Position numbers and translations under genes: made by a program. A stretch of DNA of 40,078 nt from contig JACNJU010000035.1 in NCBI GenBank assembly GCA_014382375.1, forward strand, positions 1 to 40,078, given 5' to 3'. The stretch comes from Rhodospirillaceae bacterium (lineage in GTDB: Bacteria; Pseudomonadota; Alphaproteobacteria; Rhodospirillales; JABHCV01). The notes beneath the pieces are model-generated. The model did no database searches and was not told the origin of the DNA. It worked only from the letters and a program-made list of their open reading frames with translations. Positions 24,666 to 26,912 of this stretch are shown here, one piece after another; positions within the stretch are counted from its first letter, which is position 1; every line of letters begins with the position of its first letter.

Positions 24666-25332
24666 ATGTATTCTCTCCTTGAACGGTATTGAGCGCACCT
24701 TCATACAGGGAAAAAATCGGCTTGAGGTTTTGCGTGGCATTGATCTTGATTTGAATGCTGGTGAAATCGTCGCCCTTGTCGGCCCTAGCGGCGCTGGTAA
24801 GTCGACCTTGTTGCACATTGCCGGGCTGCTTGAAAAACCCGATAGCGGCACGATCTCCATTGCCGGGGATGCCTGTGCTGACATGGACGATGACAGCCGC
24901 ACCCAGGTGCGACGTCATCATGTCGGTTTCGTTTATCAGTACCACCACTTATTGCCGGAATTCACGGCTATGGAAAACATCGCCATTCCGCAAATCATTT
25001 CCGGCATCAGCCGCAAGGAAGCGCGCATTCGGGCCGGTGAGATGCTGGACTGGCTTGGTCTGACAGAGCGTTCCACCCACCGTCCAGCCCGCCTGTCAGG
25101 GGGCGAGCAGCAACGGGTCGCTATCGGCAGGGCGTTGGCAAATGCACCAAAACTGCTATTGGCCGACGAACCGACAGGTAATCTTGACCCCCATACGGCT
25201 GGTGAAGTCTTCGATGTGCTGATCCGGCTTGCACGCGGTGCCGGCCTTGCCGCCTTAATCGCCACCCACAACCCGGACCTTGCCTCGCGCATGGACAGGA
25301 TCGTCACGCTCAAAGACGGTCACCTGATCTAA
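24658..25332 (+). CDS. lolD: Lipoprotein-releasing ABC transporter ATP-binding protein
   Basis: This ATPase powers lipoprotein release by the Lol permease. The 224 residues show Walker A GPSGAGKS (42-49), a Q-loop region, the signature [15 protein letters not shown] from 146, and Walker [14 protein letters not shown] chose the ATG at 24658, which lies inside the end of the permease gene; the longer reading from 24583 is a shadow of it. The stop codon overlaps by 4 nt the stop of the convergent lipoprotein gene. The neighbouring lipoproteins could be clients of this system, but that would hold for any lipoprotein. Confidence 0.95.
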
Positions 25333-25979
25333 CAGTTCGTTGAGTCCGGGCAGTTGCTTTCTCTATTTTTATTTTTAAGAATAATCCGGAGCGGTTGGAA
25401 AAGGGTCACGGGAGTGGCGTTTGCCACGTATGGCACAGTATGGACGGGCGGCACGGTGATGCCGTGGAGAAACTGTGACACTGTTTCATCAGAGAATTCC
25501 CCTTCATTTTGATGACACACATAGCCCGTCATAAGTTGGCGGAAACGCGCCATACTATCATTGTCCGAGCGATGGCTCAGTTTGTGAAAATGGAAACAAC
25601 TGCTTCCATCAAAGGAAAAATATTCGTATTGAATATCCCCTTTTGGGGCTTTAATGCTGGCATGCCTGCCGTAGGAAAGTTGCTTTTCTTTCAGGGCGGT
25701 CCAGCCCCTGAGGGTCAATCTTTTTGCCTGCCCCTCCACAGTGATAATTCCCATTGAGTTGGCTGAGATCAGGGCAGAGTAAAGGACACCTTTCTTACCC
25801 GTTGCGGACAGCACTTCGGTTTGTCCATAGCCGTTTCGCGAGATGGTTTTCTCAACAGCGGTCGCGCCAATAATGTCAGGGGAGACCTGAAATGCTTGAT
25901 AGTCCTTGTTTACTTTTGCCTGGCAACCGGCAAGGAGAATACTGGAACTGAGTAATATTGATGCAATCTGGATATTCAT
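25329..25979 (-). CDS. Putative lipoprotein of unknown function, second of a tandem paralogous pair
   Basis: I do not recognise the family. The 216 residues begin with a short lipoprotein signal peptide, lipobox LLAGC with Cys19 as the lipidation site. The rest looks like one soluble, beta-rich domain. It shares with its upstream neighbour the blocks [14 protein letters not shown] (91-104), [13 protein letters not shown] (120-132), the GYVCH motif (152-156) and the [15 protein letters not shown] segment. Cys128 and Cys155 are 27 residues apart, as in the paralogue, and may form a disulfide. It starts 2 nt after the stop of the paralogue, so the two are co-transcribed. Its 3' end overlaps the lolD stop by 4 nt. 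Confidence 0.8.
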
Positions 25980-25981
25980 GA

Positions 25982-26635
25982 TTAATTCCGCTTGGTGTGT
26001 ACTGATCTTGTTTTTAATGCTTGAACAGGTTCGTAATAGACATTCGACGAGAGTTCACCCGGCAATTCCACGGAGTTGAATTTCGGCACCGTGATGGAAC
26101 TCAGGAATCTGGCGACGGCGGCATCGCTTAAAGGGGCGGCAATGCTATGACAGTAGTATCCGGCAATCAGTTTTGTGTACCTGCTTAGGGTATCAGAACC
26201 AGATGGTTGGTAAATACTGTGGAAGGCAAAGCAGGAGTTAGCCAGAAAAGAAAAGCGTTCAAAATCTACTTTGCCGCCGGGGGTTACAGCCCGACTCTTG
26301 ATGCCAAATTTGATTTCCTTGCCTTGCAGCGCCTTCCAGCCCTTCATGATTAATCGTGGAAATATGGCGGGATCATTGATGACGGCAGCTTGGTGTGTCT
26401 CAACAAACAAGACGGAAACCTCACGATTGGATGTGGCCGCATGAAGGACTTCCATTTTACCGGTACCGTCCCGTACCCGTGTGTGCTCAAAATCATCAGC
26501 TGAAAACAATTCTGACGTTACTGCAAAGTTGTCCTCACGATTGTAGGGCGGTCGCTGGCAGCCACTCAGTATGATCCCGGCAACAAGCAGGACGACCAGG
26601 GCGTAAAAACCAGAAAGAGTTTTTGTTGCTGACAT
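25982..26635 (-). CDS. Putative lipoprotein of unknown function, first of a tandem paralogous pair
   Basis: I do not recognise the family. The 217 residues begin with a signal peptide (hydrophobic 11-23) and lipobox ILSGC with Cys26. The shared domain has MKGWKALQGKEIKFG (97-111), RFSFLANSCFAFH (127-139), RYTKLIAGYYCH and the SDAAVARFLSSITVP block. Cys135 and Cys162 match Cys128 and Cys155 of the neighbour with identical spacing. Overall identity looks modest (roughly a quarter to a third by eye), so the duplication is old. A GGAGGAG ribosome site precedes the ATG. The gene follows the GIY-YIG gene by 28 nt on the same strand and may be in one operon with it. Confidence 0.8.
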   Translation of the reverse strand: MSATKTLSGFYALVVLLVAGIILSGCQRPPYNREDNFAVTSELFSADDFEHTRVRDGTGKMEVLHAATSNREVSVLFVETHQAAVINDPAIFPRLIMKGWKALQGKEIKFGIKSRAVTPGGKVDFERFSFLANSCFAFHSIYQPSGSDTLSRYTKLIAGYYCHSIAAPLSDAAVARFLSSITVPKFNSVELPGELSSNVYYEPVQALKTRSVHTKRN

Positions 26636-26663: not shown

Positions 26664-26912
26664 TCAATCGGGGATTATTTTCAACTGCACCTTGAGTTTT
26701 GTGTCCTTCTTGAGAGAAATTTCCCGACGCAAGGCATCGCCGTGCTCAAATGGGCCCTCCCTGTAGGCCATTTCCCAGGGTCCGCGCCCGCGGGTGAATT
26801 TTGCCCCGGTGCCGTTGTTGTGTTCATCAATGCGGCGCACCGTATCCTTGGATATCCCCGTATACAGGGTGCCCTTAGGGTTCCGCAGAACGTAAACAAA
26901 CCAGTCCTTCAT
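26664..26912 (-). CDS. Small GIY-YIG nuclease-superfamily protein (UPF0213/YhbQ-like)
   Basis: The 82 residues form a minimal GIY-YIG domain: WFVYVLRNPKGTLYTGIS supplies the two-strand motif as YVL...LYTGIS, then the conserved Arg in DTVRRIDEHN, and KFTRGRGPWEMAYREG. The expected Glu lies in LRREISLKK. Proteins of this size are widespread in bacteria; some have weak DNA nuclease activity and a repair role has been proposed for YhbQ, but a function here is not shown. It is divergent from dnaE (91 nt between starts) and leads the minus-strand group with the two lipoproteins. Confidence 0.88.
   Translation of the reverse strand: MKDWFVYVLRNPKGTLYTGISKDTVRRIDEHNNGTGAKFTRGRGPWEMAYREGPFEHGDALRREISLKKDTKLKVQLKIIPD

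Follow-up and report, generated by a model that had tools for sequence, protein, structure and literature searches.

A tandem pair of envelope lipoproteins from an uncatalogued alphaproteobacterial family with two invariant cysteines and a probable Mog1p/PsbP-like fold

Introduction

The proteins PsbP, Mog1, Eag/DcrB, LpqN, Apa, Tsi3, TplEi and RseB/MucB are taken here to form one fold class, and an invariant pair of hairpin cysteines is not known to be a feature of Mog1p/PsbP-like proteins. Among the closest described systems, the lipoprotein DcrB is assigned to the Mog1p/PsbP group in one study (PMC7716261), and another reasons from PsbP and Mog1 that DUF1795 proteins take part in protein–protein interaction (PMC4524185). 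For Tsi3, Mog1p and cyanobacterial PsbP are named among the distant structural neighbors (PMC3792639), and PsbP/MOG1-like genes are noted beside toxins of the type VI secretion system (T6SS) in a further report (PMC3482391). In the openly licensed literature, no paper was found that links PsbP-like proteins, lipoproteins, Alphaproteobacteria and immunity.

Here, we describe two adjacent lipoprotein genes, A and B, in a 40,078-nucleotide stretch of DNA from a Rhodospirillaceae bacterium; this whole stretch is called the window. The predicted models of A and B resembled the Mog1p/PsbP-like proteins DcrB, EagT6/SciW, LpqN and CyanoP in the order of strands and helices, and these proteins ranked near the top of the fold matches. 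Like A and B, DcrB is a lipoprotein of the envelope (PMC7716261). The Mog1p/PsbP-like proteins differ from A and B in that no sequence or profile similarity between them was found. What is new is an unnamed lipoprotein family, probably of known fold.

Results

Genes A and B are adjacent and share common descent

Gene A (25982..26635, minus strand), the upstream member of the pair, encodes a lipoprotein of 217 amino acids, and gene B (25329..25979, minus strand), the downstream member, encodes one of 216 amino acids. By the ORF calls, 2 nt separate them on the minus strand, and the stop of B overlaps the end of lolD by 4 nt. The lipobox cysteine of A (LSGC, Cys26) is encoded at 26558..26560 and that of B (LLAGC, Cys19) at 25923..25925, both on the minus strand, which bears out an earlier note on this DNA that had described two adjacent lipoprotein genes with these lipoboxes. 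Under the E. coli +2 rule for lipoproteins, Q at +2 leads to outer-membrane sorting; A and B carry Q at +2 and would face the periplasm, probably sorted to the outer membrane.

In a BLASTP comparison, A and B were identical at 58 of 193 positions (30%) in a gap-free alignment with an E value of 6e-37, so their likeness is not due to chance, and the two proteins share common descent. The four blocks that the earlier note had listed as common to both (GWxALxxK, FSFxxxSCFxFH, GYxCH and SDxxVxxFLxxITVP) were all present in each protein. The two core cysteines lie exactly 27 residues apart in both, again as had been noted: in A they are Cys135 (codon 26231..26233, minus strand) and Cys162 (26150..26152, minus strand), and in B they are Cys128 (25596..25598, minus strand) and Cys155 (25515..25517, minus strand), the latter within GYVC. 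Between the genomes G000 and G001, dN/dS by NG86 and by YN00, respectively, was 0.255 and 0.257 for B, 0.187 and 0.254 for A, and 0.062 and 0.092 for lolD. Selection thus seems to act on both genes, but less tightly than on lolD.

A small GIY-YIG gene lies upstream of the pair

A protein of 82 amino acids with a GIY-YIG domain (26664..26912, minus strand; PF01541, E 1.1e-15) is encoded by a gene that ends 28 nt upstream of A and is perhaps cotranscribed with A and B. Neither this gene nor the C-terminal cysteine pair of B described below had been mentioned in the earlier note. In the window, dnaE diverges from this gene (the names lolC, lolD, proS, dnaE, YdbL, VWA, TPR and SHOCT were assigned by eye throughout this work). 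The order of GIY-YIG, A and B in G001 is that of the window, and in G003 the GIY-YIG gene is directly upstream of B. The GIY-YIG gene thus adjoins the family gene or genes in all three genomes of the genus that have them, and G002 carries it alone. As a functional partner it was rejected, because G002 has it but lacks the pair. No GIY-YIG cluster appeared among the recurrent neighbors of distant members, in a survey restricted to ORFs of at least 80 amino acids in clusters spanning two families or three genera, which could miss one. The lolCD genes were likewise rejected as a partner, because B is not followed by lolD in G003 and because G004 and G005 carry lolCD-dnaE without the pair. The small GIY-YIG gene is beside dnaE in 4/4 genomes of the genus and stands between lolD and dnaE in three of them.

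The pair is patchily distributed in the genus

Among the four genomes of the genus, A and B were both present in two (G000 and G001), B was alone in one (G003), and neither was found in one (G002). The pair therefore occurs patchily, with B more widespread than A in the genus. The ortholog of B was 71% identical in G001 and 46–47% identical in G003; an ortholog of A was present in G001, and none was found in G003 or G002. In G003 (67% complete), a single contig carries the GIY-YIG gene and B side by side, A does not intervene, and lolD is not next after B. In G002 (90% complete), lolD, GIY-YIG and dnaE occupy the corresponding place, and the genome was without any family match. Two genomes of the same taxonomic family, G004 and G005, carry lolCD-dnaE and lack both the GIY-YIG gene and members of the lipoprotein family. 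The suggestion of the earlier note that a duplicated pair is kept in one operon was weakened by these results: it holds in two of the four genomes, and fails in the one with B alone and in the one with neither gene.

Two long-branch rows grouped with the five rows of the genus in the tree (98/97), and because of them no more than 10% of bootstrap trees showed the genus rows as a clade of their own. The B protein of G003 was closer to the B protein of G000 (path 0.73) than to the A protein of that genome (path 1.5). With such a weak genus clade, the timing of the A/B duplication is inferred rather than demonstrated; the pair would be the product of a tandem duplication that probably dates to the base of the genus or earlier, and A would later have been lost in G003. 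Tandem or neighboring members were also found elsewhere, in G086, in G692 (behind a DUF2927 gene) and in G293 (flanking a DUF2927 gene on either side). The copies grouped by genome in G086 (100/96) and G293 (99/85), and less firmly in G692 (88/85), indicating that in-place duplication is recurrent and lineage-specific.

A and B belong to an uncatalogued family

At E <=0.1, profile A1, built from the five genus sequences, retrieved relatives from 32 of 317 genomes of the order, the weakest of these being chance matches. Profile A5, built from 31 core sequences, matched in 80/317 genomes of the order at E <=0.001. At E 0.01, the intermediate profile A2 matched in at least 16 of 385 genomes of the class, a lower bound since at most six candidates were scored per genome. 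In a draw of genomes from the phylum, 4/398 matched, all from the same order. The family is defined by a profile match together with a C-x(16-39)-C core, and A and B have both; their E values against the family profile, 1.6e-38 and 2.5e-38, come from a profile that contains both sequences. An independent link is provided by A1, which holds genus members only and finds the relatives in G077 at 1.1e-11 and in G094 at 6.5e-8.

Over the common domain, no significant match to Pfam or NCBIfam was obtained for the window proteins and ten relatives, nor to PHROGs for the window proteins and eight, and membership in a catalogued family was rejected for this domain. The best of the weak matches were DUF7650 (E 0.05, the best in the genus) and lipo_EMYY (E 0.14), and the profile searches of PDB sequences returned chance-level matches only. 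These HMM searches retrieved no characterised family, in agreement with the earlier description of the family as unrecognised. The family is without a model in the searched databases, and its cysteine signature makes it searchable. B had no match in plasmids, phages or viral contigs, and two distant members had none in plasmids; a phage or plasmid origin was rejected on the result for B. Some relatives carry additional parts: L008 is a fusion with pentapeptide repeats, and, as judged by eye, L047 and L050 have a TPR-like and a SHOCT-like tail, respectively, and L014, L034 and L043 have a second cysteine-bearing domain at the C terminus.

The two core cysteines are conserved and the flanking histidines are not

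In the alignment of 23 A2 sequences, which are profile matches with redundant and partial ones omitted and include five genus rows, C128, G152 and C155 were the only invariant columns (23/23). The 31 cores of A5 also keep these three residues, which adds nothing, because the cutting motif required the cysteines. Seven further distinct matches from the class, which had not been picked by motif, were read singly, and both cysteines were kept in 7/7. Among the family ORF records found with A5, which include some truncated duplicates, the first cysteine was present in 75/75 and the second in 74/74 (one record being cut). The loss of cysteines among homologues, which the earlier note had named as a refuting outcome, was not seen, with the reservation that the profiles contain the cysteines, so that relatives lacking them could be under-detected.

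The distance between the two cysteines ranged from 17 to 40, with a mode of 27 (43/74). The fixed cysteines, the variable loop and the absence of any fixed histidine are consistent with a disulfide bridging a β hairpin, and C128 and C155 likely form such a structural bond. The earlier note had offered this together with a second option, a redox or metal site made up of the cysteines and the adjacent histidines; the first option gained from the retention of both cysteines in distant relatives, and the second lost ground. In A and B, a histidine does stand four residues past the first cysteine and directly past the second, as such a site would have it, but these columns hold histidine in only 15/75 and 10/75 records, the cysteine spacing varies, and the core is without CxxC. 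A redox or metal site was therefore rejected, and we regard it as very improbable.

Predicted models point to a Mog1p/PsbP-like fold

AlphaFold2 models of A and B were built from three-row alignments and were of low confidence (pLDDT 43.9 for A and 41.0 for B; pTM 0.38 and 0.40, respectively). Both models had the same order of elements, with the cysteines in two successive strands. The domain would consist of three strands, a helix, four strands and a helix, an arrangement that is probably Mog1p/PsbP-like. This type of fold had been proposed from the strand order ahead of the search and was written down after the first result. The structure prediction suggested in the earlier note thus yielded a common element order with the cysteines in successive strands, at pLDDT values that leave the models themselves of low confidence.

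The Foldseek search with the model of B returned DcrB (E 0.013) and SciW first, with PsbP at rank 35, and that with the model of A returned PsbP first (E 0.024); no match at E <=0.001 was found for either low-confidence model. PYL and PR-10, ligand-binding proteins of unrelated folds, were also high in the fold lists. In VIA-align, the model of B matched cyanobacterial PsbP (Z 8.6, 134 residues, 4.0 Å), Mog1 (Z 8.0, 138 residues, 3.6 Å), EagT6 (Z 7.8, 122 residues, 4.1 Å) and DcrB (Z 7.5, 108 residues, 3.9 Å), and the model of A matched CyanoP, TplEi and SciW (Z 6.8 each) and DcrB (Z 6.7), where a Z below 8 may reflect only a common arrangement and low-confidence models can give meaningless matches. 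The VIA-align rows were mostly PsbP, Mog1, Eag/DcrB, LpqN, Apa, Tsi3, TplEi and RseB/MucB. On the basis of these low-confidence models, a Mog1p/PsbP-like fold is likely for A and B, as a prediction. At the level of profiles, no match to PF08786 (DUF1795/DcrB), LpqN, PsbP or Mog1 was obtained in the Pfam scans or among PDB sequences, and an hhalign comparison of A5 with six DUF1795 proteins gave a probability of 0.2%. With this value and without a PF08786 match, a relationship to DUF1795 by profile was unsupported.

Some relatives adjoin DUF2927 or mipZ genes

The neighborhood survey covered 54 neighborhoods of relatives and the genus locus L066. A gene of DUF2927 (PF11150), a separate protein family, was found directly upstream of a distant member, on the same strand, in 10 genomes of seven families (G043, G058, G302, G293, G317, G614, G692, G092, G034 and G010), and none adjoins the window pair. 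Seven of the loci were read with start codons, and in these the DUF2927 gene overlapped the member or ended at most 15 nt before it. Five of these DUF2927 proteins were scanned against Pfam, and all five scored above the PF11150 cut-off; those of G302, G058 and G010 were confirmed by family search, and those of G317 and G614 rest on a custom profile. Counted per member, the arrangement occurred in 9/60 distinct cores with at least 600 nt upstream; 11 rows had been flagged, a trpE artefact and a truncated duplicate were dropped, and the core of G302 is the same as that of G043. No paper naming DUF2927 was found in the openly licensed literature. An HExxH DUF2927 gene followed by a member was located at L150:4171-5879, L142:5060-6357, L137:4636-6490, L058:4164-6749, L059:5894-8530, L060:5349-6992, L067:3194-4935 and L143:3552-5622.

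The motif HExxHxxG was present in 10/10 member-linked DUF2927 proteins, which are putative metallopeptidases, and several had another H behind it and a segment resembling a Met-turn. Both features belong to the metzincin motif; the matrixin/astacin matches of the member-linked DUF2927 proteins were below the cut-off. Elsewhere, in a non-random part of the DUF2927 places made up of 30 returned loci, 20 regions chosen mostly from the weak end and the loci beside members, 33 DUF2927 ORFs had EExxQ, and the loci fetched for them contained no family member. Three HExxH ORFs in two loci were without an adjoining member, and their genomes, G032 and G034, have a member elsewhere. Ten more DUF2927 ORFs were without a readable motif, and eight loci were without an ORF readable with the custom profile (L189, L195, L196, L198-L200, L202 and L207). 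As judged from these motifs, DUF2927 seems to contain an active-type (HExxH) and an altered-type (EExxQ) branch. At L206:2382-4914, two consecutive HExxH DUF2927 genes lie behind a lipoprotein-like gene that is dissimilar to the family.

In other relatives, mipZ was the recurrent neighbor. It was present in 6/6 fetched neighborhoods of the taxonomic family f29 and in 3/4 of those of f135, named by Pfam in L071 only, and where read closely (G033, G420 and the second copy of G614) it was divergent from and adjacent to the member. At L065:5527-7710, L071:3862-5692 and L060:14307-15896, from two taxonomic families, a member is divergent to mipZ, and it is mipZ that is followed by a VWA-like and a DnaJ-domain gene. 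Other lineages had other neighbors. In f27 (L068:3617-6441 and L070:4063-9715), members are near DUF2141 (by Pfam, in L070) and YdbL-like genes (by eye), perhaps only through the synteny of related genomes.

The survey of neighborhoods, of the kind called for in the earlier note, revealed a partner that recurs beside some distant members, and it did not extend this partner to the window, where the pair is without a DUF2927 or mipZ neighbor, no partner gene is visible, and the only DUF2927 match of the genome is of the EExxQ type on another contig; the neighbors vary by lineage. The ancestral partner of the family, going by the DUF2927 operon, may be a periplasmic peptidase, and this does not extend directly to the window. 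The recurrent operon ties the family to a putative peptidase of unassigned function, which makes both functions testable, and the window pair represents such a lipoprotein duplicating and diverging outside the DUF2927 operon.

A protein-binding role is tentatively preferred

As a tentative reading, which we prefer among those considered here, A and B would be disulfide-stapled, non-enzymatic, protein-binding envelope lipoproteins of Mog1p/PsbP-like fold that were duplicated in tandem. The two invariant cysteines, placed in successive predicted strands, would bond and staple that hairpin, and the proteins would act without catalysis by binding another envelope protein, by analogy with other proteins of this fold; that a partner gene recurs beside distant members speaks for this reading. 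An unlikely reading takes the family to be ancestrally a dedicated regulator (an inhibitor, a propeptide-like protein or an adaptor) of a periplasmic HExxH DUF2927 peptidase, with A and B as orphaned duplicates whose partner was lost or is another protease. The HExxHxxG DUF2927 genes directly upstream of members in 10 genomes of seven families speak for it, as does the finding that standalone DUF2927 ORFs read mostly EExxQ and have no member in the fetched locus; it is weakened by the low share of cores with this arrangement, by the three HExxH ORFs without an adjoining member, by the altered type and distant place of the sole DUF2927 match in the window genome, and by the peptidase activity of DUF2927 being only putative. 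Slightly less credible again is a reading in which the two proteins evolve fast, are specific to their lineage, serve in the envelope without a dedicated partner and were paired by chance duplication. The presence of any copy in only three of the four genus genomes, the neighborhoods that differ by lineage and the dN/dS values above that of lolD speak for it; against it, both copies look to be under purifying selection and keep both cysteines, and G000 and G001 have each retained A alongside B at a mutual identity of 30%.

The better fold matches of the low-confidence models include Tsi3 and TplEi, and A and B could by this likeness be orphan immunity or neutraliser lipoproteins directed against incoming periplasmic toxins. 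The tandem or flanking copies in G086, G293 and G692, as in an immunity array, the patchy occurrence, and the GC contents of the two genes (0.478 and 0.486, against a window mean of 0.532 with a standard deviation of 0.026 over 650-base segments) would agree with this role. VipB (PF05943), the sole T6SS marker tried, gave 0 matches in the genome, which on this one marker makes an immunity role less likely. The pair also differs from Tsi3 and TplEi in the lack of an effector neighbor, there being no recognisable toxin among the adjacent GIY-YIG, lolC, lolD and dnaE genes, and each of the f29 relatives is a single copy at a shared syntenic position near mipZ. An adjoining cognate effector together with a T6SS, the hallmark of T6SS immunity, was thus not found, with VipB as the T6SS marker, and an orphan immunity protein would need neither. 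On balance, we consider an immunity role improbable.

B carries a second, C-terminal cysteine pair

Returning to the preferred reading of A and B as protein-binding lipoproteins, the two copies differ at the C terminus. B ends in CPDSTNC, with Cys210 encoded at 25350..25352 and Cys216, the last residue, at 25332..25334 (both minus strand), and A is without this pair. The terminal pair was found in 3/3 B sequences of the genus, as CPDSTNC in G001 and CGLTNC in G003. Because only B has it, the two proteins have probably divided their roles or partners. A broader and quite speculative proposal, for which we claim little probability, is a module found across the class Alphaproteobacteria, in which an HExxHxxG DUF2927 lipoprotein peptidase is controlled by a disulfide-stapled PsbP-like lipoprotein; the peptidase would have been lost and the regulator duplicated several times, the window pair would be an orphaned duplicate, and the tail of B would mark a subtype with a second redox-sensitive clamp.

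In the whole set of family ORF records, a C-terminal C-x(2,6)-C was present in 13/75, and 12 of these end in the cysteine itself, with Asn or Asp before it in every case. The 13 records come from genera g1, g29, g51, g54 and g59 of two taxonomic families, that is, from four genera besides that of B. This recurrent terminal cysteine pair was observed at 25332-25352 of the window and in L003, L004, L017, L117, L119, L120, L122, L123, L132, L133, L135 and L139.
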